Origin: Cupriavidus metallidurans CH34
GTDB lineage: Bacteria; Pseudomonadota; Gammaproteobacteria; Burkholderiales; Burkholderiaceae
NCBI RefSeq assembly: GCF_000196015.1
Contig: NC_007974.2
Span: 2,418,001-2,482,000, forward strand
Length of the DNA stretch: 64,000 bases
Direction: 5' to 3'
Shown here: positions 37,608 through 62,241 of the stretch, one piece after another
Layout of the letters: each line of letters opens with the position of its first letter
How positions within the stretch are numbered: position 1 is the first letter of the stretch
Notes under the pieces: generated by a model
Seen by the model: the letters and a program-made list of their open reading frames with translations, nothing else
Told to the model about the DNA's origin: nothing
Databases searched by the model: none
Made by a program: the position numbers and the translations under genes

Positions 37608-38245
37608 AGCGCACTCCTGATCCTGGAGTTGGGGTCGAACAGGGGTACTCGCGTACTCGACGGCCCAAGAAAAAAGAGCATAGGCGTCCGCGCATCGGCA
37701 TACCGGGTCGGCCCGGCCCATCCGTGGACAGTTTCTTGATAGACCATTTTGCGGGCAAGTCCACCGGAAGCGTCATCCGCGCCAAACATGCCGATCTGAC
37801 CGTGCGGCTGGCATCCGCACATGGCAGTCACACATGGCGGTCACAGGCGCAGGCGACGGTACATTGCGGCCCCTGCGGACACGAGAGGCAATCGATTCGA
37901 GGATTCAATGCGCAGGTTCGGAAGCTTCCCGAAATCGGCACAGGGCGGCTGATGTTTAATCAGGGCGTCCATGCCGCGCGGACATGCGGCATGGACTGGC
38001 ATGGCGACAGGCTGGAGGGTAACCTTCGCACTCCTTCGCTACGTCCTCGAGAGAGAGGCAAGCATGCGGGAGAATCTGTTACCGGCCGTGAGCGGCCATT
38101 GCCACCAAGGGCAGGTTGATGCAATGGCGGACTGATCCTCTGTGGGGCAGATCGAGAACCCCACCACTCTGGCAGCCTGGAAAGACAGGCACTTCAACCG
38201 TCACCTGCCCCTCCTTCCAGTTCGCAAATCTCATCGACGTGCGAC
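37608..38245. other. 638-base stretch without a convincing gene
   Basis: Open frames here are short or have poor composition and no ribosome site. It contains a GGAA-type palindrome at 37916-37929 and an inverted TTACC-rich stretch. A 23-codon frame at 38063-38134 (MRENLLPAVSG start) is too small to call. Confidence 0.4.
37916..37929 (-). promoter_or_regulatory. GGAANNTTCCG palindrome (one mismatch to the 14-mer)
   Basis: On the minus strand it reads GGAAGCTTCCGAAC, differing only in the last base from the consensus found elsewhere in the window. It lies about 310 bases upstream of the DUF4148 start, farther from a gene than the other copies. Confidence 0.45.
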
Positions 38246-38443
38246 TCAGGTAATGACGGTTGCGCTTGCGTCGCACACCATGCACGGTGGATCGGCTGCG
38301 GCATACGCTGCGGATGGCGCCAACAGGGCCGAGCAAAGCACGGCCACCATGCCCAGGGCAACAAGTGTGTGTGATGTCCGAAGGGGTTCTGACGCGCGGC
38401 GCGTCACGCTATCGTCCGCGAATTCTGCTGGTTTGACTGACAT
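38246..38443 (-). CDS. small exported or membrane-anchored protein
   Basis: A 65-residue protein from the ATG at 38443, with GGAG seven bases upstream. It has a positively charged start, a hydrophobic helix (TLVALGMVAVLCSALLAPSA), a likely signal-peptidase site AYAA-AD, and a short mature tail with a CMVC pair (DPPCMVCDASATVIT). The tail may bind metal or form a disulfide. Not recognised. Confidence 0.55.
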   Translation of the reverse strand: MSVKPAEFADDSVTRRASEPLRTSHTLVALGMVAVLCSALLAPSAAYAAADPPCMVCDASATVIT

Positions 38444-38750
38444 GATCAAGCTCCGAAGGTAGTCCTATTTGCCTGAACCGGCAGCGATGCGCCACCCGTT
38501 CCCTGCCTTCGTTATAGGCCACCGCGGCTACGCGCAACTATCCGAAAATTCCCAAAATCCAACAGGAAACTCCGGTCGCGATATCACCGCACGGTGTGGC
38601 GTTTGCGACGCTGATGGGAAAATTCGGAGCCGTCGTCCCGCCGAATGGGCAACATCCGAGCAAAGCGATTGCCTTGGGCAATCACAATGAGGAGTAACGG
38701 TCGACGATCCACGCATCGGTCACTGCATGACACCTCCCGGAGTTCCAACC
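38444..38750. other. intergenic stretch with AT-rich inverted motifs
   Basis: No gene seen. Two similar elements face each other: TCCGAAAATTCCC near 38539 and GGGAAAATTCGGA near 38617. They resemble the GGAA-type palindrome elsewhere in this window but are more divergent. Confidence 0.4.
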
Positions 38751-38969
38751 ATGCATTCCGAACTTCAAGACGAAATCCTGCAACTCAGGGCCAGGAGCGC
38801 GCGCTTTGCCTGCCTGTCGTATCGGCTCAGCGACCTTGAGGATGTGCTTCGCTTCATCAAGTCCGGTCTCCTGAAAGCAACGCCGGCAGCCATTGCGCAG
38901 TACCGGAAAGAGCGCCTTCAACTCATCAGCCAGATCCAGGCAATGCTGCTTGCGTCCAGGACCGCCTGA
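38751..38969 (+). CDS. small helical protein of unknown function
   Basis: A 72-residue protein from the ATG at 38751, preceded by GGAG with suitable spacing. Composition is helical and charged (ELQDEILQLRARSARFACLS, QYRKERLQLISQIQAML). No signal peptide and no recognised family. Confidence 0.55.
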   Translation: MHSELQDEILQLRARSARFACLSYRLSDLEDVLRFIKSGLLKATPAAIAQYRKERLQLISQIQAMLLASRTA

Positions 38970-39092
38970 CGACATTTCGGGGCAGCCACGGCCGCGCTAT
39001 CGCTGGCGCGCCATGCAAAACGCCGCGAAACCCCCAAAGGATCTCGCGGCGCCCATCAGGCAGGACCTGTTTCGTCCCACCACACAGTCTGA

Positions 39093-40436: not shown

Positions 40437-40457
40437 GATTGTCACCGTCAGAGACGC

Positions 40458-41138
40458 TTAGAACTTCGACGACAGCGCGGCCGTCGCATCCTTCGGTACG
40501 GGAATGTCATGCGACTTGGCATAGGCCGTAGCGGCCTGCAGCGTGCTGCTCAGACGCGACACATGCCCAGGCAGTTCGGTGGCGATATACGTGCCGGTCG
40601 AGAGCTTGCTGCCCAGCGACATCTTGTCCATGATCGACGCGCTCGTCAGTTGTGCCTGGGCGGCATCCTTGAACGCCATGACGTTGGATCGCAGGCCGAC
40701 GTAGCGCAGCATGCCGAGCCCCAGATGCTTCATGCCATCGGTATAGGCGGCCTTGCCGGCGGCATCCATGCGAGTGTTACCGTCCTTGAGCGCGGCCTCG
40801 ATGGCCTTCGATGCCTCGCTCTGCACCTTGTCCGCTTCCTGCAGGCTGTCCTTGGTGGCACCCGAGGTCAGCGCATCGGCCGTGGCCTGCGCCTGTGCGG
40901 CAACTTCCTTGAGGCCGACAGCCTGCGCCAGATTGACTTGCGCCAGCAGCACTTCCTTGCCGGCCGCGCCATACGCGGCGGAAAGCTGGTCCTGCATGGC
41001 CCCCGTATCGACACTACCGCCCGATGCGCTGCTGGACGGCGTCACGGCATTGGCAATGGCGCCAAGCGAAGGAAGGGCGTGCGCGTGCGCAGCGGCAAGC
41101 GACGAGAGCGCGATGATGGCGAGGTGTTTTTTGATCAT
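40458..41138 (-). CDS. exported Ala-rich helical protein
   Basis: The protein is 226 residues from the ATG at 41138. It has a signal peptide (LAIIALSSLAAAHAHA) and then a mature part rich in Ala, Ser and Gln with long amphipathic helices (LSAAYGAAGKEVLLAQVNLA, KVQSEASKAIEAAL). No family recognised. It sits between the two FlgT-like genes, 21 bases before the lipoprotein gene and 73 bases after the upstream one, and is likely part of the same envelope assembly. Confidence 0.7.
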   Translation of the reverse strand: MIKKHLAIIALSSLAAAHAHALPSLGAIANAVTPSSSASGGSVDTGAMQDQLSAAYGAAGKEVLLAQVNLAQAVGLKEVAAQAQATADALTSGATKDSLQEADKVQSEASKAIEAALKDGNTRMDAAGKAAYTDGMKHLGLGMLRYVGLRSNVMAFKDAAQAQLTSASIMDKMSLGSKLSTGTYIATELPGHVSRLSSTLQAATAYAKSHDIPVPKDATAALSSKF

Positions 41139-43571: not shown

Positions 43572-44348
43572 TCACGCCGCCTGCCGAGCGTGGGAAACGT
43601 CATCATCCTCGACTACTGACGGAGATATCTTGCCGGCCGGCGCACCTACTTCGAGTCGATAGCCGAAGCCCGACACGGCATGGATCGAAATCGGGCCGCG
43701 TGAACGCATGCCCAACTGCATGCGCAGGGTGGAGATCAGTGTCGACAATGCCCTGGACGAGGCCGGCAGCCTTGCACCCCAGATTTCCTGCTCGATGCTG
43801 GCACGGGTCAGCGTCTTGCCTGCGCTCCGGAACAACATGAGCGCGAGCCGAAACTGCCGACCAGACAGCTTGACGGCCACTCCACGCAGCAACACGCAAT
43901 GCTGCCGCATATCCAGCACATAGTCGCCTAACCGAAAAGTTGCGCCCCTACCTTCACGGGACAGTGAATAGCACTGATGCGCCGCGATCAGCCCGGCGGC
44001 GACGATCTCCGGAGATCGCGGATCAAAAATAAATCCATCGATCCTGTCATGGAATGCATGTGCAATGCCATTGGCATCTGGCGTCGTGACCATAACAACC
44101 AGCGGCGTATCGAAACCGAGCTTTCTCACCTGATCGACAAACGCCAGACCCGGCTCACTGACAGTCGGCAGCATCAGGACCACGAGGTCGAACAGAATGC
44201 TCTGGCCAACCTCTGCAAGGTCAACCAACGACGCAAAGATCGAGTAGTGGAAATCTCTGGCAGCCGGAAGCAGATCGATCGTCGCATCGATGCCGTCCGG
44301 CACCAGAATGCCAACTGCAAGCGGCCTGGGTATGGCGAGGGTATTCAT
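43572..44348 (-). CDS. orphan OmpR-type regulator with degenerate receiver
   Basis: A 258-residue protein. The receiver-like domain (residues about 8-130) reads FDLVVLMLPTVSEPG where a phospho-acceptor Asp is expected, and FIFDPRSP where Lys-Pro is expected, so it probably cannot be phosphorylated in the usual way. The C-terminal winged helix is intact (VKLSGRQFRLALMLFRSAGK, LSTLISTLRMQL, VSGFGYRLEVG). No sensor kinase adjoins it. An exact GGAANNTTCCGAAT palindrome lies about 105 bases upstream. A paralogue starts at 46683. Confidence 0.82.
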   Translation of the reverse strand: MNTLAIPRPLAVGILVPDGIDATIDLLPAARDFHYSIFASLVDLAEVGQSILFDLVVLMLPTVSEPGLAFVDQVRKLGFDTPLVVMVTTPDANGIAHAFHDRIDGFIFDPRSPEIVAAGLIAAHQCYSLSREGRGATFRLGDYVLDMRQHCVLLRGVAVKLSGRQFRLALMLFRSAGKTLTRASIEQEIWGARLPASSRALSTLISTLRMQLGMRSRGPISIHAVSGFGYRLEVGAPAGKISPSVVEDDDVSHARQAA

Positions 44349-44451: not shown

Positions 44452-44465
44452 GGAAGCTTCCGAAT
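44452..44465 (+). promoter_or_regulatory. GGAANNTTCCGAAT palindrome (exact)
   Basis: GGAAGCTTCCGAAT, with GGAAGCTTCC a perfect 10-bp palindrome. It lies between the divergent orphan regulator (start 44348) and the small gene at 44572, roughly 105 bases from each. Confidence 0.55.
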
Positions 44466-46282: not shown

Positions 46283-46682
46283 ACCACGGCAGCCGTCACA
46301 GCGGTGGATTCCGACCATCGGTCCGGTCGGACCTTCCTTTGGCATCCAACAACCCGCTGCGCGCTAGTCGAGACCATCGCCCAGTTCAACGCAATGCGTG
46401 AACTGGGCTGCGCCTTCGGGCAAGCTCAACTCGGGGCGCCAGCCCTGCCGGCAGCTGAGTTCCTCGCGCTCGCGCTGCAGCGCTGAGAGCCTGGTCCGAC
46501 GCCTGCCGAACGCCCGCGATCCGCGTGCGCATCACTTGCTCCCAAGTACTCAACCCATTCCGATGGATCACTCCTTTCATCGGAAATTTCCGAATCGCCC
46601 TGCTGAATGGCTTTGCTACTCTCAATCGATTCAGCATGAATGCGCCCCCATAGCCGGGGCGCCTGGCTTTCGGAAGTTGAAA
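46283..46682. other. 400-base gap with regulatory palindrome
   Basis: No convincing gene; a 60-codon frame at 46304-46486 has no ribosome site or family features. The gap holds the promoter of the second orphan regulator and the GGAA-type palindrome at 46582-46595. Confidence 0.45.
46582..46595 (+). promoter_or_regulatory. GGAANNTTCCGAAT palindrome (exact)
   Basis: GGAAATTTCCGAAT; the surrounding TCGGAAATTTCCGA (46580-46593) is a perfect 14-bp palindrome. It ends 87 bases before the start of the orphan OmpR-type gene, the same relative place as the copy before its paralogue. Confidence 0.55.
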
Positions 46683-47396
46683 GTGAACTCGATCAAGATC
46701 GCACTGCTTGACGCGGAGCCATCGTCCGCGACCGGCATCAGCAAAGTGCTGGAAGCCGGCGGTGTTGTATCGTCCCGCTTTACCAGTTCCGAAAGGTTGT
46801 TTCGGGAGCTCCGGCGTTCTGTATTCGATGTGGTACTGGTGTCGGACAACCTGCCCGACGACGCGGCCACCGATGTCGTCCAGGCACTCCGGCGTGCCAC
46901 CACGTTCCAGATGCCGATCCTGATCATCGCTCACCACGCGTCCCAGGTGAATCTGATCGACGCTTTCGACGCCGGTGCGGACGACTATGTCATGTTCGCC
47001 AGCGACCCGAACAGCCTGTTGCCACGGATCATCGGCCACCATCGGCGCGCCCGCCGGCGCGGAGGATCGGGCGGCAGGCAGCTCAGTGCAGGCGACTACA
47101 CGCTTGACCTCGATGCCTGCTGCGTGAGGTTCCGCGCAGAGACCATCCGTCTGACGCCCAAGGAGTTTGCGCTGGCCAAGCTGATGTTCTCTTCCCCCGC
47201 CGTGACCTTGCCACGTGATCACATCGAGATCGTCGTCTGGGGCAGCACCCTGCCACCGCTATCGCGCGCGCTGGCTGCCATGGTAGCCCGGCTTCGACGC
47301 GTGCTTCGGCTCCGCCCGGAGCACGGCGTGACACTGCGGGGCGTGCATTCGATGGGCTACCGGCTCGATATCGCCGCTCCTGAGTCCAGAGTCTAG
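46683..47396 (+). CDS. orphan OmpR-type regulator, paralogue of the gene at 43572
   Basis: The protein is 237 residues from the GTG at 46683, which has GGAAG six bases upstream. The receiver-like domain reads FDVVLVSDNLPDDA; at the phospho-acceptor position stands Ser rather than Asp, with Asp one residue later, and MFASDPN replaces the usual Lys-Pro. The winged helix is intact (IRLTPKEFALAKLMFSSPAV, LRLRPEHGVTL, VHSMGYRLDIA). No kinase adjoins. A perfect terminator lies about 80 bases after the stop. Confidence 0.83.
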   Translation: MNSIKIALLDAEPSSATGISKVLEAGGVVSSRFTSSERLFRELRRSVFDVVLVSDNLPDDAATDVVQALRRATTFQMPILIIAHHASQVNLIDAFDAGADDYVMFASDPNSLLPRIIGHHRRARRRGGSGGRQLSAGDYTLDLDACCVRFRAETIRLTPKEFALAKLMFSSPAVTLPRDHIEIVVWGSTLPPLSRALAAMVARLRRVLRLRPEHGVTLRGVHSMGYRLDIAAPESRV

Positions 47397-48764: not shown

Positions 48765-48778
48765 ATTCGGAACTTTCC
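48765..48778 (-). promoter_or_regulatory. GGAANNTTCCGAAT palindrome (exact, minus strand)
   Basis: Minus-strand reading GGAAAGTTCCGAAT. It ends about 165 bases before the hybrid sensor kinase start and follows a run of seven T residues. Confidence 0.55.
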
Positions 48779-48943
48779 ACATTGATTTGCGGACATGTCT
48801 GTCACCGGCGTAGCAATGGGGTTCCTAGACTTCGGTCGTCAGCATCCCAATACATTGGGGCCACATGCCGACCGACGCCAGGCGTACCCAGTCGCCAATC
48901 CCAGAAGCCTCAAGCATGCCCGGCGTTGTTATCGAGAAGCGCC

Positions 48944-51900
48944 ATGTCAAACCCGATTTCCCCTTCACCAGCTGTACGCCAGGCCGTCTTTGTAAAGACG
49001 GCGCACTCCCTTTGGCAAAACATCTGGCGGACAATCGGCACGATGCTCGCACTCGTCTTCCTGGCGCTTGGCACCGCCCATCCCGCGCAGGCAGAATTCC
49101 GGCGTGATCCGACCGTGCCCTCTCATGCGGTGACATTAAAGACAAGCATCCGGGTCAACGGCACGTCTTCACCCGCTCCAGGGTCATCGACACTCCAGGA
49201 ACCAAATGACCCGATGCTGCTGCGCATCGGCGTGATGGCAAACGGATTACCACCGTTCGATCTCGTTGGCATCGATGGCAACTACGAGGGCATCTCCGCC
49301 GACTATCTCGCGATGATCGCCAGCACGCTGCACGCAAAGGTCGAAGTCCGCGCGTACGCCACCCGAGATGCCGCGCTCCACGACCTTTCCCGCGATGCCA
49401 TTGACGTGGTCGCAACCGACCCGGGCCAGACGGAGCCGGCACAAGGCGCCATTGGATTCACGCCGAACCAGATCATCGAGATCGCAACCCGCACCACTGC
49501 GCACAAGCTGGTTGGGAATCAGACGCTTGGATATGTGAATGGCCAGCTGGATCCTCAAGCCATCCTGGCAGCCTACCCTGGGCGCAAACTGCAAGCCTAT
49601 GCCACCCTGCTGGACGCACTGACGCAGCTGTCGCTTGGCGCGGACGTCGTACTGTTGTCAAACGCCACGGCTGCCAGCTATATCACCGCGCAGTATGGCA
49701 TTCCGAACCTGGTCGCGGTGAATGTCTCACGACTCTCCGTCGGTGACCTGTCGTTCCTCGTCCGGGACCCAGCGCTGCGCGCGCGGTTCGACGCGGCGAT
49801 CCGCGCGATCCCAAAGCCCACGCGTCTGGCGATCTCCACCCACTGGGTGCCGACGGCATTGATGCCGCACTTCGACAAGGCGCTGAACCTCACGACGGAA
49901 GAAAGCGCCTGGATCGCCGCGCATCCCGTGGCTCGATACCGTGCTACCAATGACCGGGTTCCGTTCGTGTTTTCCGACGAGCATGGCGAATCGGTGGGAC
50001 TCAGCGTGCAGGTACTCGGCAAGATCGAAGAGCGCACGGGGCTGCGATTCGAGCCCGTCAGCGCCGATGGCAATAGCGACCCCGACCACGCAACCACACC
50101 CACGATTCAGCCAATCGTGCCAGTTGATGGTCCCTCCGAGCGTACCGACGGTCTGACCATCACAGAGCCCTACTTCCAGGGGTACTGGGCCATCGTGGCG
50201 CACGTTCGGCAACACGGGATCAACAACATCCTGGATCTTGCCGGCAAGCGCGTTGCCGTCGTGTTGCCCAACCCTATCATTGACCGGCTTCGCGCAACCG
50301 TGCCGCTCCAGGTTGTCAAGGCCGCGTCCTATCGTGACGCCTACCGCATGGTTGCCACGGGCATCGCCGATGCGACGCTGGGCAACATGATGACCGCCAA
50401 TTACTTGATACGCGAGTCCTATCCCGAAGCGCTTCGGATTGTCGCGCCCATCAGTGGCACGCCACTCAATGTTGGCATTGGCGTTCCCGCAGACGAGCCG
50501 ATGCTGCTGGCCATTCTGAACAAGGCGTTGCTCAGCCTGTCGCGGGAGGACATCAACGCCTTGCGTCTGCGCTGGTCCGAGCCCAGCAGCATTGCAGGTA
50601 GTACGGAGACCTTGCCCTCCTGGGCGTGGTTCAGCCTGAGCGCCGGCCTGGTGCTGCTGGCGATATCGCTGCTGTGGTCGCAGTCACTGCGACAGCAGAT
50701 CCAGCGCCGCCGCCGCATGGAGGCCGTCCTCCATGAGCAGCTTGCCTTTCAGACTTCCATCCTCGACGCCATTCCGCAACCTATCTATCTGCGCGATATC
50801 GACCTCAGACTCATGACCTGCAATGCGGCATTCGAGCGTGCCCTCGGCTGTGGCCGCAAGCAGATGCGTGGGCGCACGATTGACCAGATGCCGCTGAAGC
50901 TTGGCGACGTCCCATTGAGCATGCAGACCTATCGCAAGGTCCTGGCTACTGGCGAGGCGGCCACGCTCGACCGAACCCTCATGATTGAGGGCAAGGAACG
51001 CATCGTGCTGAACTGGGTGGAACCGCTGCGCAATGCCACGGGCGGCGTGGTGGGCATCATCGGCGGATGGATCGACATGACCGAACGCCAGCAAATGGTC
51101 ACTGAACTGGCTTCCGCCAAGGACCGCGCCGAGGCCGCCAATCGTGCAAAGAGTGCATTCCTGGCGTCCATCAGCCACGAAATCCGCACACCGATGAACG
51201 CCATCCTGGGCATGCTGGAACTCACGCTTCAGGACAAGCGCCTGCCTGACGATGACCGCCTTCAGGTGGAAACCGCGCAGGAGTCCGCAAAATCGCTGAT
51301 CGGGCTGATCGATGACATCCTTGACGCGTCGAAGATGGAAGCCGGCAAGTTCGTGTTGACGCCTCAGCCAGCGCCACTGCGCCAGCTCATCGGCGACGTC
51401 ACGAGTCTCTTCGGGCTGGCAGCGTCGCGCAAGGGCGTCCAGCTTGAAGCCATCGTCGATGATGCCGTGGCCCCTTGCCACATGGTTGACCCGCTTCGTT
51501 TCAAGCAAGTTCTCAATAACCTCGTGTCGAACGCGGTGCGCTTCACCGACCGTGGCTCGGTGGTGATCCGACTCGGCGCCACCAATCTCACGCCAGATTG
51601 TCAAAGCCTGACGTTCTCGGTCAGCGATACCGGCACCGGGATTCCCGAAGATGGATTGAAGAAACTGTTCCAGCCATTCACGCAGATCGGCGACACCAAG
51701 CGTTCCGCCGGAGGTACGGGATTGGGTCTGTCCATTTGCCAACGGCTGGTGACCAAGATGCACGGCACGATTGGCATTACCAGCGAGGTAGGCAAAGGCA
51801 CGACGGTCACCGCGACAATCGAGTTGCCGATTGCCGCCGAAATCGCGCCGGTCCTGCAATCGGAACAGCAAAATCAGCCCGCCTCCAAGCCCGGCAAGGC

Positions 51901-52336
51901 ACTGCGCGTCCTCATCGTCGATGATCATGCGCCAAACCGCATCCTGCTGCAGCGGCAGCTTGAAAAACTCGGCCACCGCGCGTTCACCGCAAGTGACGGA
52001 TGCGAGGCGCTTGAAAAGCTGACGGACGCTACCTTCGATCTGATCATCTGCGACTACTCCATGCCAAACATGGATGGCCCCACGCTGACGCGAACGATCC
52101 GCTCGAGCGATCTGCCGTATCGCACGCTGCCTATCCTGGGCTATACGGCCAGCGCACAACCAGAGATCCGCGCGCACGCAATCGAATGTGGGATGGATGC
52201 CGTGATGATCAAGCCTGTCGACATGGCCACGCTGGAGACAACGCTGGCGGCGAACGTCAACCGCCGCGCGCACCCTGGGTTGCCTGGGCTCGCACTTGCG
52301 CTTGCGCCTTGCGGAAAATCGGCACTCACGGCGTGA
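48944..52336 (+). CDS. EvgS/BvgS-like unorthodox hybrid sensor kinase
   Basis: The protein is 1130 residues from the ATG at 48944 (GAGAAG upstream). A cleavable-type signal anchor (LALVFLALGTAHPAQAE) precedes two periplasmic solute-binding Venus-flytrap domains (about 80-310 and 320-545). A membrane helix lies at about 557-580, PAS at 600-712, HisKA with His744 (SISHEIRTPMNA), HATPase at 845-960 (NNLVSNAVRFT, GTGLGLSICQR) and a receiver at 986-1105 with phospho-Asp1037 (IICDYSMPNMDG). Unlike BvgS it has no C-terminal Hpt domain; a separate Hpt protein is encoded at 54279. Confidence 0.94.
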   Translation: MSNPISPSPAVRQAVFVKTAHSLWQNIWRTIGTMLALVFLALGTAHPAQAEFRRDPTVPSHAVTLKTSIRVNGTSSPAPGSSTLQEPNDPMLLRIGVMANGLPPFDLVGIDGNYEGISADYLAMIASTLHAKVEVRAYATRDAALHDLSRDAIDVVATDPGQTEPAQGAIGFTPNQIIEIATRTTAHKLVGNQTLGYVNGQLDPQAILAAYPGRKLQAYATLLDALTQLSLGADVVLLSNATAASYITAQYGIPNLVAVNVSRLSVGDLSFLVRDPALRARFDAAIRAIPKPTRLAISTHWVPTALMPHFDKALNLTTEESAWIAAHPVARYRATNDRVPFVFSDEHGESVGLSVQVLGKIEERTGLRFEPVSADGNSDPDHATTPTIQPIVPVDGPSERTDGLTITEPYFQGYWAIVAHVRQHGINNILDLAGKRVAVVLPNPIIDRLRATVPLQVVKAASYRDAYRMVATGIADATLGNMMTANYLIRESYPEALRIVAPISGTPLNVGIGVPADEPMLLAILNKALLSLSREDINALRLRWSEPSSIAGSTETLPSWAWFSLSAGLVLLAISLLWSQSLRQQIQRRRRMEAVLHEQLAFQTSILDAIPQPIYLRDIDLRLMTCNAAFERALGCGRKQMRGRTIDQMPLKLGDVPLSMQTYRKVLATGEAATLDRTLMIEGKERIVLNWVEPLRNATGGVVGIIGGWIDMTERQQMVTELASAKDRAEAANRAKSAFLASISHEIRTPMNAILGMLELTLQDKRLPDDDRLQVETAQESAKSLIGLIDDILDASKMEAGKFVLTPQPAPLRQLIGDVTSLFGLAASRKGVQLEAIVDDAVAPCHMVDPLRFKQVLNNLVSNAVRFTDRGSVVIRLGATNLTPDCQSLTFSVSDTGTGIPEDGLKKLFQPFTQIGDTKRSAGGTGLGLSICQRLVTKMHGTIGITSEVGKGTTVTATIELPIAAEIAPVLQSEQQNQPASKPGKALRVLIVDDHAPNRILLQRQLEKLGHRAFTASDGCEALEKLTDATFDLIICDYSMPNMDGPTLTRTIRSSDLPYRTLPILGYTASAQPEIRAHAIECGMDAVMIKPVDMATLETTLAANVNRRAHPGLPGLALALAPCGKSALTA

Positions 52337-52419: not shown

Positions 52420-54243
52420 ATGGCATCCCCGGCACAGGAAGTCCCCCGTCCCGGGCACGACCCCCTAGGGAAGATTCACACATGGCTTCGCGAAGGGGCG
52501 CTGCTGCAGCGCCGCGCATTTGATACGAGACTGGCGGAAGAGAACGCCGGAATCCGTAGATGCGATCGTTGCGCAGGCCGCGCTGGACGTGGAACTCGGC
52601 GACACGGCAAGCGCAAGAACCGCTCTTGAACAGGTACTTGCCACAGTCCCGAATCACCCGCGGGCGCTGGCAGGCTTGGCTCATCTGGCCCTGTGCGCCG
52701 GGGATGCGAAATCGGCCGTGGACTGGTTTCAGCAAACCGGCCCGGAAGCACTTGATGAAGCTGAATTGTCCGATTGGTGCGAAGCACTTACGGCTACGGG
52801 CGACCTGACGCACGGCGCGGACATTGCCAGGCATCTTTGCGAACGCGCACCCAAAGCCGCGACGTCCTGGTTTCAACTCGGGCTCACCCTGCATCACAGC
52901 GGCTTCCACGAGCAGGCACTGGATGCCTATCCCAAAGCACATGCGCTAGACCCTGACCTCGACAATCTCTGCAACAACATCGGCGCCGCATATCTGCAAT
53001 CAGGCCGGACCGAAGAAGCCATGACACCGATCCGTCGGGCCATCGAGCTGAAGCCTTCCAATCCCCTGGCGTGGATCAACCTGTCGGATGCCTTGCTGAA
53101 ACTGCGTCGCCCGGATGACGCCGCGTTGGCGGCCCGGCGCGCCTGCGCCCTGGCCCCAACGATGCCGCTCGCCTTGCAAGCGCAATCCAATGCGCTCAAG
53201 GACCTTGGCCAATGGGCAGATGCGCTGGCCCTGATGGAGAAGGCAGCGATGCAGGCGCCAGTTTCGGGCGGCATCATCTGGAATCTCGCCATGCTACAAA
53301 TGCTGCACGGCGACTATCGCAATGGCCTGATCAATTTCGAACACCGCTGGGCTTCGCCAGAACTGGCGGGAACATTCCCGGATCTGAAGGCACCGATCCG
53401 GCGTGGCGAATCCCTCGCTGGCAAGACGCTGTTTCTGTGGGGCGAACAGGGCTTCGGTGACGCGATGCAGTTTGTCCGCTTCGTTCCCGGGATTGCGGAG
53501 TTCGTCAGACAGCAAGGTGGACAGTTGTACTACTGCTGCTTCTCGAAGCTTCATACCTTGTTCTCGCGCGGTCTTGCGGACGTGACCCCGGAGGTCATCC
53601 CGCATGACACTCCCAGTCTGCCCCGCTTCGGCTATCACCTGCCGCTTTGTAGCGCGCCTCTAAGACTTGGCACCGAACTGGATACGTTGCCCGCCGATGT
53701 GCCATATCTGCGTGCGGATGCTGCCGCCGCAAGCGCGTGGGCGCAACGCCTGTCGGCGTCTGGCAAGCTCAACGTCGGCGTGGTCTGGAGCGGCAGCCGT
53801 GGCCACCAGCGCAATCCGCTTCGCGCGGTGCCTGTCGCTGAGCTGGCCGGGGCGCTCAGCGACCTTCCCGGCATCGAGTTCCACAGCATGCAGATCGATG
53901 GGGGGCGGAACTGGCAAGCGTCCCCGATTTCGATATCCGTGATCACACTGCGGAACTGCGAAGCTACGACGACACCGCCGCACTGATTTCCAGTCTTGAT
54001 CTCGTGATAACAGTGTGCACGTCCGTCGCACACCTTGCGGGCGCCCTCGGCAAACCGACCTGGGTGATGCTCGACGTGAACGCTTCCTGGCAATGGCTGC
54101 TCGGTCGATCGGACAGCCCGTGGTATCCAACCACCAGACTCTATCGGCAGGTAACGTATCGCGACTGGCAACCTGTCTTGGAACAGGTGCGTGCCGACCC
54201 GCTAGAGCTGGCTGGCGGCATTCCGGCGGCGGGCGCCAACTGA
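52420..54243 (+). pseudogene. TPR-repeat glycosyltransferase, frameshifted
   Basis: A tetratricopeptide protein with a C-terminal GT-B glycosyltransferase-like half (family 9-like). TPR units fill the first half (NNIGAAYLQSGRTEEAMTPI); LFLWGEQGFGDAMQFVRFVP and LNVGVVWSGSRGHQRNPL mark the transferase. After MQIDGG the frame is lost at a run of six G (53900-53905) and the expected continuation, AELASVPDFDIRDHTAELRS through DLVITVCTSVAHLAGALGKP, is read in another frame to 54243. A seventh G would restore it. The start is also irregular: the main frame opens only at a TTG (52520), while a plausible N-terminus starting at 52420 is in another frame. Confidence 0.8.
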
Positions 54244-54278: not shown

Positions 54279-54953
54279 TCAGTCCGGTACAGCGCCTAAC
54301 GCCGCAAGAAGGCGTTGAATCGCCTGTGTCAGCAATGGCACCAAGGCAGTGACCGTATCACCGTCTTGCCGGATCGAGGCGGTTTCAATCGCCTGGCAGA
54401 CCGCCACCGTCGCTTGGCAATCCAGCATCCGGGCGGTTCCCTTGATCCGGTGCGCCATTGCCCGCGCCTGATCCCAATCGAGAGCGTGGCAAGCGGCCGA
54501 AAGTGCCACGAGGTCCTCGGTATTGGTGAGGACAAGGCTTTGCACCAGCTCCATACGAATATCGGCGTCGCCCCCGGTCAGGGCATCGAGTGCTGGCCAC
54601 AGGCGTTCTCCATCGGCCGCCGAGAATGGCACAAAGCCAAGACCAGCGAACGTTTCCGCGATCACCACCGTGCCTGCGTGGAGGGGAAGCATCGCATCGA
54701 TAGATAGGGGCAACTCCGAAGGCAGACTGCCGGCATCACCCATCAGCAGTCGCAAACAGGGAGGTGAATGAACGGAAAGGCAAGCCTGCGATGCCACTGA
54801 TAGTGGCCACCGAACGACGACGACGTCCGCGGCATCGGTGGATGCCGCAGCGCTTGCCTCTTCTGTGAATAGCCCCAGTGACGTCAGACTTGCAGCGAGT
54901 TCATCGCGCTCCGCGCCACTCCATTCCTCACCTGAGATGATCACCCGTGACAT
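54279..54953 (-). CDS. Hpt-domain phosphotransfer protein
   Basis: A 224-residue protein. The C-terminal 100 residues form an Hpt domain with the phospho-acceptor His168 in ARAMAHRIKGTARMLDCQ. The first 110 residues look like a vestigial receiver or unknown alpha/beta domain (DAADVVVVRWPLSVASQACL). It ends convergently with the glycosyltransferase gene and is followed on the same strand, 14 bases upstream, by the NarL-type regulator. It likely carries phosphate from the hybrid kinase at 48944 to that regulator, replacing the missing Hpt domain. Confidence 0.85.
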   Translation of the reverse strand: MSRVIISGEEWSGAERDELAASLTSLGLFTEEASAAASTDAADVVVVRWPLSVASQACLSVHSPPCLRLLMGDAGSLPSELPLSIDAMLPLHAGTVVIAETFAGLGFVPFSAADGERLWPALDALTGGDADIRMELVQSLVLTNTEDLVALSAACHALDWDQARAMAHRIKGTARMLDCQATVAVCQAIETASIRQDGDTVTALVPLLTQAIQRLLAALGAVPD

Positions 54954-54967: not shown

Positions 54968-55600
54968 TCAAGGTGCAATATTGCAGCGCCGCGCAAAATC
55001 GATCAGTTCCAGCAACGTCGTGACGTGTAACTTTTCCATGATGCGCGTTTTGTGGCTACTCACGGTCTTGTTACTGATGAAGAGCGAGTCTCCAATGGCC
55101 TTGTTCGACATTCCCTTGCTCAGCATCTGCATGATCTGAATCTCCTTGTCAGTCAGTTGCTGCAGCAGTTCGCTATCTTCGCGGGCCTTGCCGGGCACGG
55201 CACCGGATTCAACCACCTCGGCGGGAAAGAGCGTATAGCCTGCCAGGACAGATTCCACACAGCGCATGATGTCCGTCATGTCCTGCATCTTGCTGACGAA
55301 GCCCTTTGCGCCCACCTGCATGGCGCGAGGAGCAAAGGTCATCGGATCCTGCCCCGAAATCACGAGCACCCGGATATTGGGCTGGATGGCCTTCAGGCGG
55401 GGGATCACCTCAAGCCCATTGATCTTTGGAATATCGAGATCTAGGATAACCAGATCGGGCTTGCACTGCCGCACAACGTCGATCGCCGCCTGGCCGTTGT
55501 CGGCTTCCAGCACGGATGAAACGCCGAGCACTTGCGATAGCTGCGTTTTGATAACGAGTCGGACTGCTGGGTGATCGTCGACAATGAGGACGGTAATCAT
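54968..55600 (-). CDS. NarL/FixJ-family response regulator (BvgA/EvgA-like)
   Basis: The protein is 210 residues from the ATG at 55600 (GGAGAAG upstream; an in-frame ATG five codons earlier is weaker). The receiver has Asp8/Asp9 (IVDDHPAVR), phospho-acceptor Asp54 (LVILDLDIPKINGLE) and Lys104 (GFVSKMQDM). The LuxR-type helix-turn-helix is at about 145-205 (LTDKEIQIMQMLSKGMSNKA, ISNKTVSSHKTRIMEKL). It is close in layout to BvgA/EvgA and is the natural output partner of the nearby hybrid kinase and Hpt protein. Confidence 0.93.
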   Translation of the reverse strand: MITVLIVDDHPAVRLVIKTQLSQVLGVSSVLEADNGQAAIDVVRQCKPDLVILDLDIPKINGLEVIPRLKAIQPNIRVLVISGQDPMTFAPRAMQVGAKGFVSKMQDMTDIMRCVESVLAGYTLFPAEVVESGAVPGKAREDSELLQQLTDKEIQIMQMLSKGMSNKAIGDSLFISNKTVSSHKTRIMEKLHVTTLLELIDFARRCNIAP

Positions 55601-56397
55601 CTTTGACTTCTCCATACCTGTAAGGCGGTTCAATGACTGATCGAACCACGGGAAAATTCGTAGCTTCCCCATGGATTATTGTCATTGCCATACGCTAGGA
55701 CCGCATCGAGAAGATTCCGCATTTGCACTAGGATAACTCCGAGTTTTCGATTCATGTGCGTTGCTGCAACGCAGCATCTCATCTTCGTGCGCCTCGAAAG
55801 GCGGAGTGATGGCCAGCGCAAGGGGGGCGTCTATTGGAGAGAACAGACAAGAGGGCGTAAGCAGCCACCCCGTGGAACAGTCCGAACCACCGGACTTAGT
55901 CGTATGACACCAATAGAAAGATGCAGGCAACAAAAACGACGAGGCTGATTGCGGCGATGAAACAGGAAGCGATGAAAACCATGACGACGTGCAGTGATAT
56001 GACGCCATGATTCAATAAACACCAATTCTCTGTCGAGACGGTATGGCTCGCCGAACGATCCGATCGTTCTTGAAATCCTGCCCGAATTCTCTGCAGCGAG
56101 ATTTCGTCCCTTCGCAAGATAGGTGCCCTCCACAACCAGTGGCGCAACCCCATGCTATATGTCCCATAAAGCACATACATCACGCCTGATAAACGGCAGC
56201 TTACTCGCGACAATGGCGCACCCGCCGCGTGCGCCGAGCAGTTTCATTTAGGAATATTCCGCTCTTATTTTCCGAAATTTCCCTTCCCAGTCGATCATGG
56301 CGAGCGTCGATACTTGCCCTGCACTCACCTGTCCGGCGACAGGTGCGTGGTCTGGCATTTGCATTTGAATCAACGGGCAACGAAGGGGGAAAGACGC
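55601..56397. other. 797-base gap without an assigned gene
   Basis: No convincing long gene. A possible tiny membrane peptide of 28 residues lies on the minus strand at 55896-55982 (MVFIASCFIAAISLVVFVAC start), without a ribosome site. GGGAAAATTCG near 55646 and GGAATATTCCG at 56251 are related to the recurrent palindrome. Confidence 0.4.
56251..56282. promoter_or_regulatory. GGAANNTTCCG core and a second divergent copy
   Basis: GGAATATTCCG at 56251-56261 matches the core exactly; GGAAATTTCGGAAA follows on the minus strand at 56269-56282 with two mismatches to the 14-mer. The pair lies about 115-145 bases before the gene at 56398. Confidence 0.45.
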
Positions 56398-57189
56398 ATG
56401 GCCACTGGAATCAAGCAGCTTCATTCCACTCCAGGCAACCCAACGACGCCCAGCCTAGGTACAGGCACAGACACCCAGGGCACAGCGCGGATGATCCGCC
56501 CGAGCAACGTGAACTACGATCTCGAAGAGCTTTCCGCCGCGCTGCACTATAACGACGAATGGCTTGGGCGCGCGAAGGTGGCGATCGAGGTTCTGGACCA
56601 ATCAAATGCCCATACCGCCTATGCAAGAGTGATCTTCTTCGACAAGGAACGCGCCGCACTTTGCTTCCACCTCGCGGCGGACATCTTCCGGTGCGCACAA
56701 TTGACACGCGTCGTACACCGCGCACTAGGCGCCAGCTTCGAGCGGGTCGTGCCGCCGTCGCTGCTGATCGATGTGGGCCCAATTGCCCATCCCGACGCTG
56801 CGCTTGCCGGATCACCAACAGTGCTGGCCGATCTGACCGCTTCCGTGTCAATGCTCGCCAACTCCACAACCGAAGCGAGCTGGCGACAGGCAGCGGTTTG
56901 TGCCTATGTAGTGGCGTTCAGGCTTGCCCGTAAGCTCATCGCCGCGATCTGCCCGCCAACGCCCAATGTATTGGACAGTCCATTGGACACCGCGATCTGG
57001 CAGTTACGGATGCACCGGTCGCCGAAAGCCCGGGCACTAGCCGAAGCGTTGGCTTCCATGCAGGTCACCTACAGCACAGCAGCCTTCGATTTCGATACCC
57101 CCTTTCCGCAAGACCAAGCCTTGCTCCAGAGCGAGGCCATGAAAGCATTTCAGGCGGATCTAGCCGCATTCCAGGCGACCGCTGCCTAA
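56398..57189 (+). CDS. uncharacterised protein, cytosolic
   Basis: The protein is 263 residues from the ATG at 56398, with AGGGGGAAAG upstream. The first 35 residues are Thr/Gly-rich and probably disordered; then a mixed fold begins at NVNYDLEELSAALHYNDEWL. The rest is helical (FRCAQLTRVVHRALGASFER, VCAYVVAFRLARKLIAAICP). No signal peptide, no recognised family. It lies downstream of a double GGAA-type palindrome and convergent to the protease remnant. Confidence 0.62.
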   Translation: MATGIKQLHSTPGNPTTPSLGTGTDTQGTARMIRPSNVNYDLEELSAALHYNDEWLGRAKVAIEVLDQSNAHTAYARVIFFDKERAALCFHLAADIFRCAQLTRVVHRALGASFERVVPPSLLIDVGPIAHPDAALAGSPTVLADLTASVSMLANSTTEASWRQAAVCAYVVAFRLARKLIAAICPPTPNVLDSPLDTAIWQLRMHRSPKARALAEALASMQVTYSTAAFDFDTPFPQDQALLQSEAMKAFQADLAAFQATAA

Positions 57190-57777: not shown

Positions 57778-58881
57778 GGGCGGCCTCAATTCCGAAGTGC
57801 AACACCGAGAATTGAGGCCAAGATGACCAAGAAAAATTACCAGCAGTTGAGTGAGACCGAACGCCATGCGATAGCCCTGGGGCTGCAGCAAAAGCAAAGC
57901 CTCAGCGCCATAGCCAGGGCCCTGGGGCGTGACAAGAGCACTATCAGCCGCGAGTGCAATCGCAATGCAGGCGGCAAGGGCTACGCCTCCAAGTTCGCCC
58001 AGCAGCGCAGTGACAATCGCAAACGCCAAGCCCGTCCCAGCCCCAAGCTGCACCGCCAAGGGCCCTTGTTCCCGCTGGTTTGCGACTACCTGCGCCACAA
58101 GTGGTCGCCCCAGCAAATCGCCAACGAACTCCAGCGTCTTCACCCACAGGATCGCCGCTTGCAAGCCTCACACGAAAGCATCTACACCTGCATCTACGCC
58201 CAGCCCCGGGGAGAGCTCAAGAAGGAGCTGGTGTCCTGCCTGCGCATGGCCCACGCCAAACGTTGGCCCCGCTCCAGGGGAAAGGATCGCCGCAAGGAGA
58301 CGCAAGACTTGCTGAGCATCCATGTGCGAGCACCCGAGATCGAGGATCGCCAGTTGCCCGGCCACTGGGAGGGTGATCTGATCAAAGGCAAGGCTAACGC
58401 CAGTGCGATTGGCACGCTGGTCGAGCGCACCACCCGTCTGGTGGTGCTGGTCAAGCTGCCACACCCCAACCCCGCCACAGCGGCGCATGTACTGCAAGCC
58501 TTCAGCGACAAGCTCAAGACAATAGCCCAGCCGATGCGCCAGACCCTGACCTACGACCGGGGCAGCGAGATGGCCGAGCACCGCCAGCTCAGCGAGAACA
58601 CAGGCATGAAGGTGTACTTCTGCGACCCCTACAGTCCCTGGCAAAGGGGGAGCAACGAGAACACCAATGGGCTCTTGCGCCAGTACTTCCCCAAGGGGAC
58701 TGATCTGAGTGGCTACAGCCAGGAGCAGTTGGACGCTGTGGCCGATGAGCTCAATGGACGGCCCAGGATGACTCTGGGGTGGCGCAAGCCCATCGAGGTC
58801 TATGCCGAGCATTTGGCGCGGCTGGCCCAGCAGCCGGATTTAGTGCATTGAGTTTTTGTTGCACTTGGACTTGAAACCGCC
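57778..58881. mobile_element. IS30-family insertion sequence, about 1104 bp
   Basis: It carries one transposase gene. Ends start GGGCGGCCTCAA at 57778 and, on the other strand, GGCGGTTTCAAG at 58881, both leading to AAGTGCAACA; end positions may be off by one or two bases. The flanks share CA at 57776-57777 and 58882-58883. Removing the element and one CA restores the protease frame (CGAGM-LDVDSALAL), so it inserted in a formerly continuous gene. Confidence 0.88.
57823..58851 (+). CDS. IS30-family transposase
   Basis: A 342-residue transposase starting at the ATG just inside the left end. The N-terminal helix-turn-helix is LSAIARALGRDKSTISREC. The DDE triad is Asp185 (HWEGDLIKG), Asp245 (TYDRGSEM) and Glu279 (RGSNENTNGLLRQYFP), the IS30 pattern. 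All residues are intact, so the element may still be active. Confidence 0.96.
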   Translation: MTKKNYQQLSETERHAIALGLQQKQSLSAIARALGRDKSTISRECNRNAGGKGYASKFAQQRSDNRKRQARPSPKLHRQGPLFPLVCDYLRHKWSPQQIANELQRLHPQDRRLQASHESIYTCIYAQPRGELKKELVSCLRMAHAKRWPRSRGKDRRKETQDLLSIHVRAPEIEDRQLPGHWEGDLIKGKANASAIGTLVERTTRLVVLVKLPHPNPATAAHVLQAFSDKLKTIAQPMRQTLTYDRGSEMAEHRQLSENTGMKVYFCDPYSPWQRGSNENTNGLLRQYFPKGTDLSGYSQEQLDAVADELNGRPRMTLGWRKPIEVYAEHLARLAQQPDLVH

Positions 58882-60408
58882 CATGCCTGCTCCGCACGTA
58901 CCTGGACGGCTCTGGCACCAGGATGCAGCAGGAAACGGGCGTGCCGATTGCGTGAGCAATGATGCGATGTCGTCCGGCGTCAACGAAGCATTCTCCGACA
59001 GCAGCATTGCGGCAACGCCGGTCACATGAGGTGCCGCGATGCTGGTGCCAGTTTTGAGCCCATATCCCGATCCGGTTGGTGTCGTCATGCCCAGATTCAC
59101 GGTCGACAATACACTCAACTGACTGCCCGTCATCAGCACGCCCCTCCCCCCGCCCGGCGCGCTCAGCGTTGTTCCGGTACCGACGTTGGCATAGTCCGCG
59201 CTATCGCCCTCGGGCGTGTGCGCGGTCACCCCAATGACCCCAGAGCAATTCGCGGGAGCACCTGCGCCCATGGCCGCATCGTTTCCCGTTGCCGCCACGA
59301 TCACCACGCCGCGCGCGCGAACATCGTTGACTGCCTGCCGCAACGCCGGACCGCATGGGCTGTAACCACCCAGGCTCAGGTTGATGACCTTCGCTGGCTC
59401 GGCATTCAGTGGCACGCCGGGGACCGCGATACCCGCTGCCCAGCGCATTGCGTCAATGAGATCCGAAGTCACGCCACCGCATCGGCCCAGCGCCCGCGCA
59501 TTCGAGATTCTGGCAAACGGGGCAATACCTGCGATGCCCAAGCCAATACCACGCGTGGCGGCGATGATGCCGCTCACATAGGTGCCATGCCAATTGCTTG
59601 GAACGGCAGCACCACAAAGATCGGGGTAGTTTGTCGCATCGTCCGCGCTGACCCAGTCTCCCGGATCGGAGGGGTCGGTATCCCGGTCAGCGATGCCATC
59701 GTTCTTCACGAAGCCTGTCGGCAGGAATTTTCCGGTTTTTGCATCGGCTATCGTCGTCAATGTCTCAGCAGTCAGGAAATCGTAGCCTGCGGCAAGACGA
59801 GAGGCGTCCAGATCCTCGTGAGCAGTAATACCGGTGTCGACGACAGCCACCGTCACACTGACACCGGTCGGCATGCGCTGCCACGCAGCGAAGACATCCG
59901 CCCCGTCGCGCGACGAGGTGGTTGGCGACAGGTTCCATTACTGCAACAGGTATGTGTCGTTGGCTGCCACGCCAGCCACGTGAATGCGGTAGTCGACGTC
60001 GACATAATCGAACGCACCCGTGGCCCTGAGCCGCTGCGCCACTGCGGCGGCGTCACTTGCCGTCAGCGGCGTGCTCAACCGAAGTATGCGTGCCCCTCCG
60101 CTCATGACCCGTTTGGATGTCAACGGTTGCAGCGCCGCTGCCGACCACTGCTGGACGCGTCGCATCTCATCGCCGCTACCGTTAATGGCCGCGGCTGATC
60201 TGATCGCGCCGGACTCCTTGACGATCAACTGCACAACTGGCGCCGATGGCACCTCGGACGGGTTCCGTTTCTGCGCATGGGCAGGTGGGGCGGCGCCGAG
60301 CATGACGGCACCCAAAGGGAGCGCCATCGCCATTGCCAACGACCACCGCTTCCGCGCGACCCACGCTCGCGGCGGTCCGAACTCGGATTCAGGGGCTGCG
60401 GTTGGCAT
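58882..60408 (-). pseudogene. S8 (subtilisin-like) exported protease, nonsense codon and IS-truncated
   Basis: From 60408 the frame encodes a signal peptide (LPLGAVMLGAAPPAHAQ) and a propeptide-like region, then meets TAA (codon 157, at 59938-59940) after NDTYLLQ. The same frame continues at once with WNLSPTTSSRDGADVF and the catalytic domain: Asp191 (VAVVDTGI), His274 (NWHGTYVSG) and Ser456 (GTSIAAPHVTG) are all present. The gene is then cut at CGAGM by the IS30 element. Joined to 57245-57775 it makes 686 codons, with one in-frame stop. Likely a secreted serine protease that is no longer made. Confidence 0.92.
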
Positions 60409-60410
60409 AG

Positions 60411-60440
60411 GGAAGTTTCCGAATTAGGATTTTTCCGAAT
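60411..60440. promoter_or_regulatory. tandem GGAANNTTCCGAAT sites at the protease start
   Basis: GGAAGTTTCCGAAT (60411-60424, exact) and GGATTTTTCCGAAT (60427-60440, one mismatch) lie 16 bases apart in the same orientation. The first begins two bases upstream of the assigned start codon. ATTAGGATT/AATCCTAAT (60423-60446) is an overlapping inverted repeat. Confidence 0.6.
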
Positions 60441-60522
60441 CCTAATGCAGACATGTCCGAATGCGCGCCGCAATATCACAATTTATTGCTATGGAGCCTA
60501 TTCACGGGTATCCATGCAAAAA

Positions 60523-60548
60523 GGCCACGGCATATGCCGTGGCCTTTT
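60523..60548. terminator. bidirectional terminator downstream of the porin
   Basis: GGCCACGGCAT/ATGCCGTGGCC (60523-60544) is a perfect 22-base palindrome, flanked by five A and four T. It lies 63 bases beyond the porin stop and also between the porin and the protease promoter. Confidence 0.88.
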
Positions 60549-60611
60549 CGATCTGGTAGATGCGGAGTACCCGTCCAGGCACTCCACGATCTTCAGGACA
60601 CAATCAGGTCA

Positions 60612-61670
60612 TCAGAACTTGTGACGGATGCCGACAACGGCGCCGAACTGGTTCTGTCCATTGATTGGCTGATCAGCATTGCTCACGCCAACTACCGACA
60701 CGATGCCCCGGTCGCTATCCTTCTTGTTAATGGCATAGGCCATGTTCAGATAGAGATCAGTACGCTTGGACAACGCGTAGTCAGCCGAAGCCACCAGCGT
60801 CCAAGGATCAGCCGAAGTCTGGTGGAAGGCCTGATAGTAAACCGCGCCGGTCAACGACAGAGCCGGTGTCACCTGATAGCCCAGGCCCGTCCACCACAGG
60901 TTCGAACGTACGTGGTTGTCGGCCATCGTCTGGTTTGCCCAACGCCAGCCACCGAACACCTTGGCCGGACCAAACATATAGGTGCCAGCAATCGTTGCAC
61001 GCTGGATCTTCGCACCCGTGTCGGCAACACCTGCCGTCAAACCCAGGCGCACCTGGTCATACACAGCGCCAACCGACAGCGGGCCAGTAGCGTAGTTCAG
61101 GCCGGCCGAGTACTCAGCGCCGCGGCTGGTCTGGCCAGGGACTTCTTGGCCGTTGTAGCGGAAGCTATACAGTGCGGAAGCCGTGACGCCTCCAAACGTA
61201 CCGACATACTTGATCGCATTGTCGGCACGGCTTGCAAACGCACCGTCCTGTCCGATGATCGAGTAACGCGTCGCAATGGCCATCGGATCATAGTTCAAAC
61301 CGAAGTCATACAGCAGCGTCTGTTGGCGACCCAGCGTCAGGGTGCCGATGCCATCCTTCTGCAAGCCGACGAAGGCCTGACGATTGAACATGCGGCTCGA
61401 GTCGGCACCGCTGCCGGTGTCGATGTTGATGCCACTTTCCAGCGTGAAGATGCCTTTCAGGCCGCCACCCAGATCTTCGGTGCCACGCAGGCCCCAACGC
61501 GATCCTGAGAGATTGCCTGACGACATGCGAACCGTGCTGTTGTCGCCACCAGCATGGGTCAGATATTCGATACCGACGTCCGCCACGCCGTACATTGTCA
61601 CGCTCGATTGTGCAAAGGCACCTGTCGACGCCAAGGCAACGACCGCAGCGGTGAGCATCTTGATTTTCAT
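60612..61670 (-). CDS. Gram-negative general porin (beta-proteobacterial type)
   Basis: A 352-residue porin with a signal peptide (LASTGAFAQ). The mature start SSVTMYGVADVGIEYLTHAG and the following SRWGLRGTEDLGGGLKGIFT are hallmarks of Burkholderiaceae porins, and the protein ends with a terminal Phe (AVVGIRHKF) needed for barrel assembly. LTLGRQQTLLYDFG is the usual constriction-loop region. A passive outer-membrane diffusion channel. It has its own terminator and a long AT-rich upstream region, consistent with strong regulation. Confidence 0.95.
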   Translation of the reverse strand: MKIKMLTAAVVALASTGAFAQSSVTMYGVADVGIEYLTHAGGDNSTVRMSSGNLSGSRWGLRGTEDLGGGLKGIFTLESGINIDTGSGADSSRMFNRQAFVGLQKDGIGTLTLGRQQTLLYDFGLNYDPMAIATRYSIIGQDGAFASRADNAIKYVGTFGGVTASALYSFRYNGQEVPGQTSRGAEYSAGLNYATGPLSVGAVYDQVRLGLTAGVADTGAKIQRATIAGTYMFGPAKVFGGWRWANQTMADNHVRSNLWWTGLGYQVTPALSLTGAVYYQAFHQTSADPWTLVASADYALSKRTDLYLNMAYAINKKDSDRGIVSVVGVSNADQPINGQNQFGAVVGIRHKF

Positions 61671-62241
61671 ACTGAATTCCTCTTCCGTGGATTAACGTCA
61701 CAAGGTGAACATGCAACGATGCGAATTATCTTTGGATCGAGATTGACAAGAAATAGCCATCAGCCCAGCTCTACACTTAATGATCCGTTCCATTGACTTC
61801 CATTTTTCTCTTTTAAAACAGCCACATATGATCATGTAGAGAATGGACTACGAGATTTCCTGTGGCCTTATAAGAATCTTCCCGGAATTTTTCTGAAATT
61901 CTCGTTATGCTGGCGAGACCACGGAAAGCCAATAGTGTTGCGAACTGAGTACGGTTTCTATCCAGAAACAAAATTCTCAGAGATCACAATTGACCCAGCA
62001 TGAACAGGCTTCTTCATCCATCGCGCGATGTCTTCACGCACACGCGATCGCTCATCCACGCCTTCGGTGCTTGTCGCGCTGAAATCGGAAATTTCCGATG
62101 ATGAATCGGTCTTTCTCCTAGATCAGCGTTCGTTATGGTCGTTAGACTTAATCGATGCTTAATGATCGGCTCTTCTTTGGGACAACTATCCCAGCCGAAA
62201 CTCCACGTGAGCTGATCAAGGTGATAAGTGCTTCGTAAAAA
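61671..62241. other. AT-rich 571-base gap between porin and HTH gene
   Basis: No gene seen. The region is markedly more AT-rich than the window and should hold the porin promoter. TTGTCA at about 61746 (minus strand) is a candidate -35, but spacing to a -10 is poor. It also contains the palindrome at 62084-62099. Confidence 0.45.
62084..62099. promoter_or_regulatory. 16-bp perfect palindrome ATCGGAAATTTCCGAT
   Basis: ATCGGAAATTTCCGAT includes the GGAANNTTCCG core. It lies about 143 bases before the HTH gene at 62242. Confidence 0.5.

Follow-up and report, generated by a model that had tools for sequence, protein, structure and literature searches.

A 22-bp-phased palindrome at the bvgSA locus of Cupriavidus metallidurans CH34 as a candidate BvgA-type operator

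The 64-kb window analysed here (the whole stretch of DNA) belongs to chromosome 2 of Cupriavidus metallidurans CH34 and lies at the published bvgSA locus. It contains a recurrent palindrome, GGAANNTTCC, which is probably the operator of a BvgA/EvgA-type response regulator. The most likely reader would be the BvgA homologue encoded at 54968-55615, acting with a phosphorelay and a set of target genes. What the analysis shows is sequence, position, spacing and recurrence; the chief uncertainty concerns the BvgA-family protein that reads the site.

The gene order in the window (bvgS1, HPt protein, bvgA, a serine protease gene broken by IS1088, bvgS2, kps) agrees with PMC2864759, so the two-component system has already been published. 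That paper names the CH34 Bvg system and draws on analogies in Bordetella, E. coli and P. aeruginosa to describe its role. In its main text, the part of the source considered, no BvgA operator is described: the string ‘palindrom’ has no occurrence, and every place with ‘binding site’, ‘binding motif’ or ‘BvgA’ was checked. The literature searched for Cupriavidus or C. metallidurans BvgA, BvgAS, BvgS or a regulon, with subscription papers mostly outside its reach, gave no title about this regulon. The predicted regulon is of a known kind and the system itself is known; the regulon is previously undescribed in the literature searched.

Distribution of the palindrome in CH34

The original prediction described a 14-bp palindrome (14-mer) with four exact copies in the window. 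All are found, at 44452, 46582, 48765 (minus strand) and 60411, together with the one-mismatch copies at 37916 (minus strand) and 60427 and the core GGAANNTTCCG at 56251 and 62087. A first-order Markov model predicts 0.0041 exact 14-mers in the window against the four observed. Matches with up to two mismatches number 22, compared with a shuffle mean of 3.15 and a shuffle maximum of 8. Two copies were absent from the original list: a core at 59724, within a piece of the broken protease gene, and a GGAANNTTCC at 53369, inside a TPR gene. The proposal that all copies lie between genes thus holds for that list but not for GGAANNTTCC in the window overall, where seven of nine are intergenic. The recognised unit looks like tandem GGAANNTTCC and not like the 14-mer.

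In the 6.91-Mb genome the exact 14-mer has five copies, all within 38 kb (C4:2462452-2500230); the fifth, at C4:2500217, is located 18 kb past the window end. Allowing one mismatch yields 30 matches versus 8 for the reversed control. A second group of matches occupies C3:1790233-1804667 and adjoins a chaperone-usher locus, which we infer to be the fimbrial operon mentioned in PMC2864759 on the island CMGI-11.

The shorter GGAANNTTCC occurs 66 times genome-wide, versus 39 for its reversed control, and 11 of the 66 fall within 47.7 kb where 0.46 would be expected. All 66 places were taken with their flanks, and genes were called by a simple home-made codon model which gives approximate starts and misses genes, since no more than 75% of 479 kb comes out as coding. 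By this measure 25 of the 66 are intergenic. The proportion is 12/14 in the two clusters versus 13/52 elsewhere (Fisher 6e-5), the other 39 outside matches lying inside genes. Over 204 kb, 76 of 273 other palindromes of equal composition are intergenic (88/287 when GGAA, itself 12/14, is included). Matches equally common inside genes had been named beforehand as evidence against a regulon. Within the clusters the outcome favours one: outside matches are mostly intragenic and cluster matches mostly not. Among the 13 intergenic outside sites, two look real, C4:146200 at a bvgA paralogue and C4:1365238 at a lipoprotein-like open reading frame (ORF).

Phasing and recurrence in relatives

A second, weaker palindrome tends to sit 22 bp from the 12 intergenic cluster sites. 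The mean is 4.75 of 8 positions, versus 2.69 over offsets 12-45, and 0 of 5000 shuffles reach this value at any offset in that range. The partner is absent at some sites (5/12 score just 3 or 4 of 8). The 52 outside sites show no peak at 22 bp, where 990/5000 shuffles reach their value. A matrix derived from the sites of CH34 and relatives puts the best offset at 22 in each set taken by itself: CH34 (14 sites), the relatives (20) and Pseudomonas-type loci (11).

When a pair is defined by a combined score of at least 13/16 with each member at least 5, 164 kb of chromosome 2 contains nine pairs at spacing 22, each of them intergenic by the gene calls, whereas every other spacing from 12 to 45 gives 0-5. 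The nine include pairs at 55709 (bvgA), 61851 (porin) and 38543 (small gene), none of them listed originally. Two further pairs occur in 40 kb at the island and four in 275 kb of other CH34 stretches, including the paralogue and C4:1365238. The tandem pattern with at most one mismatch has 15 places in the genome versus 5 for the control. The chromosome-2 cluster contains six of them; the island, the paralogue and C4:1365239 contribute one apiece. Both perfect genomic tandem pairs fall in the chromosome-2 cluster.

These features resemble the known operator. B. pertussis BvgA binds as head-to-head dimers spaced 22 bp, with TAAGAAATTTCCTA as the primary Pfha site (PMC7250471), and a 10-bp motif resembling the earlier one was obtained from promoter peaks in BvgA chromatin immunoprecipitation sequencing (PMC7253368). 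The CH34 inverted half-sites match the Pfha core (GGAAATTTCC versus AGAAATTTCC), differing at the edges, which are GG..CC in CH34 and AG..CC in Pfha. At the level of sequence, a 22-bp centre-to-centre spacing is also present, not at every site, as is a site at the regulator's own gene, which is a weak pair at 55709 in CH34.

Homologues of the regulator (E <= 1e-40) are encoded in 27 of 35 same-genus relatives. For 30 regulator loci, CH34 and one other-family locus included, 900 bp upstream were examined: GGAANNTTCC is exact in 19, present only in a one-mismatch form in 8 and absent from 3. An exhaustive palindrome scan (256 half-sites, gaps 0-6) of the 28 same-genus loci without CH34 places GAAATTTC (23/28 loci) and GGAANNTTCC (18/28) at the top. 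In 16 stretches of 20 kb from relatives, 14 of 19 sites lie at most 700 bp upstream of bvgA, against 0.67 expected. The remainder comprise two between two kinase-like genes, one upstream of an OmpR-type regulator (relative G021) and two elsewhere. As the regulator loci are related to one another, such probabilities overstate independence. A lack of conservation had likewise been foreseen as an objection, and the palindrome does recur upstream of homologues of the 54968 regulator. It is also found upstream in 11 of 55 Pseudomonas-type loci (one labelled Pantoea), where it leads at gap 2; in this comparison with systems such as P. aeruginosa RocSA, the Pseudomonas sites favour TAGGAA edges, unlike those of CH34.

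Among the 33 exact 14-mers in same-genus relatives, 23 were examined and 15 are called intergenic. Of these 15, four stand at bvgA/bvgS, and six have an adhesin- or pilin-type gene no more than 300 bp away: TPS domain (L047, L074), Fimbrial/MrkDrd (L054), sub-cut-off MrkDrd (L061), type IV pilin (L062) and one Pfam-negative neighbour judged alike by eye (L049). Exact 14-mers of relatives, 8 of the 23 lying inside genes, precede filamentous haemagglutinin (FHA)-like and fimbrial genes. In G021 the homologues of bvgA, HPt protein, kinase, OmpR-type regulator, porin and unknown gene share one 20-kb stretch with those of the usher, chaperone and fimbrial subunit. Fimbriae are thereby linked to the bvg locus in that genome, the fimbrial parts being only 32-38% identical.

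Two other comparisons were set aside. Scoring genomes by whether they contain the exact 14-mer gives 33 matches versus 4 for the control in the 35 same-genus relatives, and 9 versus 1 in 24 genomes from other families of the order. These counts are not relied on because the reversed pattern is a poor dinucleotide control; a regulator match at E <= 1e-40 is present in just one of the 24, G042. Site conservation at the unknown gene (56398-57189) was rejected as support, since no exact site lies within 900 bp in any of the 9 relatives, a one-mismatch form being present in G021 alone. Homologues of this gene are present in exactly 9 of 22 relatives (G001-G022), those with the 65-70% bvgA group, and are mostly not adjacent to bvgA.

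Candidate readers of the site

The regulator gene (54968..55615, minus strand; start from the codon model) corresponds by gene order to Rmet_5714 bvgA of PMC2864759 and encodes Response_reg and GerE domains (Pfam). Its closest solved chain is EvgA (E 7e-36). A separate HPt phosphotransfer protein (54279..54953, minus strand; Pfam Hpt) is Rmet_5713 by order. The BvgS/EvgS-like hybrid kinase (48944..52336, plus strand; start read from sequence) displays the BvgAS-type architecture in Pfam: a periplasmic Venus flytrap (VFT) part, seen as SBP_bac_3 in two stretches, then PAS, HisKA, HATPase and receiver, and the receiver + GerE regulator is encoded nearby. No Pfam match to Hpt is found within the kinase, so the HPt fusion of pathogenic Bordetella is not seen here. 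A second kinase gene, bvgS2 (Rmet_5724 by order, PMC2864759; codon model), starts at 63279 on the plus strand and runs past the window (63279..64000).

The likeness to Bordetella BvgAS (PMC7250471) extends to a VFT-PAS hybrid kinase, a NarL/FixJ-type regulator, inverted half-sites around GAAATTTC, 22-bp spacing and adhesin-type targets. In contrast to Bordetella, the CH34 HPt is a separate protein, and the predicted set includes OmpR-type regulators and the island fimbrial locus. An independent HPt protein and two kinases are shared with Bordetella petrii (PMC2572626), the split HPt having already been noted for CH34 (PMC2864759). However, the B. petrii kinases are without a large periplasmic domain (PMC2572626), whereas CH34 bvgS1 has two SBP_bac_3 stretches, a periplasmic part noted in PMC2864759. 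E. coli EvgAS is close in that EvgA is the nearest solved regulator and EvgS the best NCBIfam match of the kinase, though far under its cut-off; the equivalog scores are 161.4/251 bits for EvgA, 387.5/1995 for EvgS and 176.4/271 for FimZ, all below threshold.

The domains of kinase, HPt protein and regulator support a BvgAS-like phosphorelay. Phosphate would pass from the VFT-PAS hybrid kinase to its own receiver, then to the separate HPt protein and finally to BvgA. Phosphorylated BvgA dimers are expected to bind the palindromes, often at least two side by side at 22 bp, and the bound dimers would probably activate rather than repress transcription. The NarL/FixJ-type regulator at 54968 had been proposed from the start as the reader. 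It is the best-supported one, given the recurrence of the palindrome upstream of its homologues and the BvgA-like phasing, with the amendment that it was already annotated as BvgA (Rmet_5714, PMC2864759).

Several observations weigh against this explanation. An exact upstream palindrome is missing from 11 of the 30 regulator loci (8 of the 11 have the one-mismatch form), and CH34 bvgA itself has just weak sites nearby. Within 500 bp, nine of 12 named beta-proteobacterial loci lack even a one-mismatch copy: Paraburkholderia L077-L082, Cupriavidus L083-L084 and Variovorax L085. Eight of the 23 exact 14-mers examined in relatives lie inside genes, and 6 of the 15 CH34 tandem places fall outside the predicted set, about the control level. 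Homologues of the unknown gene are without a site in 8 of 9 relatives; as the match starts are truncated there, the scan may have looked outside the real upstream region. Lastly, other NarL-type regulators in relatives have the same upstream tandem, so the motif does not single out BvgA.

This last point concerns the perfect tandem, which occurs 23 times in the genus (CH34 included; 21 in relatives) versus 5 for the control, and 3 versus 3 times in the 24 other genomes. Genomes lacking a match to the 54968 regulator account for six of the 23, two of which (L279, L280) are upstream of other regulators. In 8 of 16 loci examined in relatives, the pair is located 66-131 bp upstream of another response-regulator gene. 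Four of these eight genes were tested with Pfam, giving three with receiver and GerE and one with a receiver only on a short ORF; the other four are named by eye. All 16 loci are labelled intergenic by the gene caller, a label that is probably too generous.

CH34 itself has a BvgA-like paralogue (C4:145458-146081), 59% identical to the window BvgA, with GGAAAATTCC about 117 bp upstream and a 22-bp partner. BvgA is therefore an inferred binder, since the paralogue has the same kind of upstream site. Together with the eight tandems at other response regulators, this pair makes a shared operator network a live rival, in which the palindrome is read mainly by the paralogue or jointly by several BvgA-family regulators. 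We regard it as possible but rather unlikely, as the cluster lies around this particular bvgA and the kinase, with sites in the gaps between bvgA and neighbouring genes in both CH34 and relatives.

Binding by one of the two orphan OmpR-type regulators is very improbable. Both of their genes are preceded by a site, as autoregulated genes may be. However, OmpR-family proteins usually bind direct repeats, the palindromes recur upstream of BvgA homologues, and the exact site is confined to CH34 and G021 in a set of 22 OmpR-family loci, which adds to CH34 21 relatives that are mostly just 33-39% identical and probably represent another paralogue. That the copies are matches of chance or composition, or a dispersed repeat without regulatory role, is hardly credible: the reversed control is nonzero (39 for the 10-mer) and 39 of 52 outside matches are intragenic, but clustering, intergenic placement, recurrence upstream of bvgA and a best offset of 22 bp in CH34, relatives' and Pseudomonas sets alike all argue otherwise, and no longer repeat is seen, flank identity of any pair among seven intergenic window sites being at most 42% in register.

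If BvgA-type regulators do read the site, the operator with 22-bp phasing, tied to adhesins, fimbriae and its own gene, may be older than pathogenic Bordetella. A broader picture, which we put forward tentatively, is that of an environmental, non-Bordetella Bvg system running a two-tier surface programme with one palindromic code. In this picture bvgA, the paralogue and other NarL-type regulators would each have the same 22-bp-phased operator, and the acquired fimbrial island would have been wired in by gaining it. The list of targets and operators makes Bvg control testable in a free-living, metal-tolerant model strain.

Predicted targets and neighbouring genes

The predicted CH34 targets of BvgA are bvgA, bvgS, a porin, two paralogous subtilases (one broken), lipoproteins and a helix-turn-helix (HTH) gene, with the two orphan OmpR-type regulators as putative second-tier factors and genes of the unlinked fimbrial island of chromosome 1 as additional candidates.

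At bvgA, the weak pair (55709..55740; 22-bp spacing, 7/8 and 6/8 positions) has its centres about 99 and 121 bp upstream of the start, a zone shared with the sites of many homologues. One of the two perfect genomic tandem pairs (56251..56282, 22-bp spacing) is located between bvgA and the unknown-function gene (56398..57189, plus strand), which has no Pfam and no NCBIfam match. Upstream of the hybrid kinase, the pair scan identifies a palindrome with a weaker 22-bp partner (48769..48800) at about 170 bp.

OmpR-type regulator 1 (43572..44348, minus strand) shows only Trans_reg_C in Pfam and is preceded by an exact match (44452..44461) centred about 109 bp upstream. Regulator 2 (46683..47396, plus strand) combines Response_reg and Trans_reg_C; its palindrome (46582..46591) is centred about 97 bp upstream, and a site is also found upstream of the G021 homologue.

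The porin-like protein (60612..61670, minus strand), labelled by eye from sequence and with a homologue in G021, has a weak tandem pair (61851..61882) about 186 and 208 bp upstream, spaced 22 bp. The palindrome at 62087..62096, without a good 22-bp partner, is centred about 150 bp upstream of the HTH gene (62242..62667, plus strand; Pfam HTH_3). A palindrome with a weaker 22-bp partner (37898..37929, pair scan) lies about 320 bp upstream of a secreted-protein-like ORF on the minus strand, and the tandem and pair scans find a weak tandem pair (38543..38574) about 205 bp upstream of the small gene at 38751.

The broken subtilase gene (pieces at 58840..60408, minus strand) shows Peptidase_S8 on 58840-59874 and an insertion sequence at about 57824-58851; PMC2864759 places IS1088 in the defective serine protease gene. 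Just upstream is a palindrome with a one-mismatch copy 16 bp on, not 22 (60411..60436); the longest protease reading frame has its ATG at 60408 (minus strand), and the 60411 site stops 3 bp before it. An intact second subtilase (L008:2-1453, C4 ~2501.8-2503.4 kb; Pfam) shares 43% identity with its broken counterpart across 320 residues and has a Gly-rich tail and its own upstream palindrome array.

On the island, the distance from the sites is about 300 bp to a short secreted-protein ORF (L011:14005) and about 735 bp to the start of the fimbrial subunit, which leaves the CH34 link to the fimbrial operon loose. A likeness of L011:14005 to the G021 gene L272:1560 was discarded, being a 12-residue match with E 0.008 in a two-sequence comparison.

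Three further observations are reported in their own right. The lipoprotein-like ORF (L015:3641-4157, C4, minus strand) is Tyr/Gly-rich, was missed by the codon model and has no Pfam match; it lies about 80 bp downstream of the strong palindrome C4:1365238 with its 22-bp partner. In seven relatives (L277, L279, L280, L281, L283, L286, L287) the perfect 22-bp tandem separates a response-regulator gene from a divergently encoded short protein that resembles a universal stress protein by eye. Finally, TTCG-N5-CGAA is found upstream of 24 of the 55 Pseudomonas-type BvgA/RocA-like regulator genes (among L088-L154) and may represent a second operator or an RNA element.

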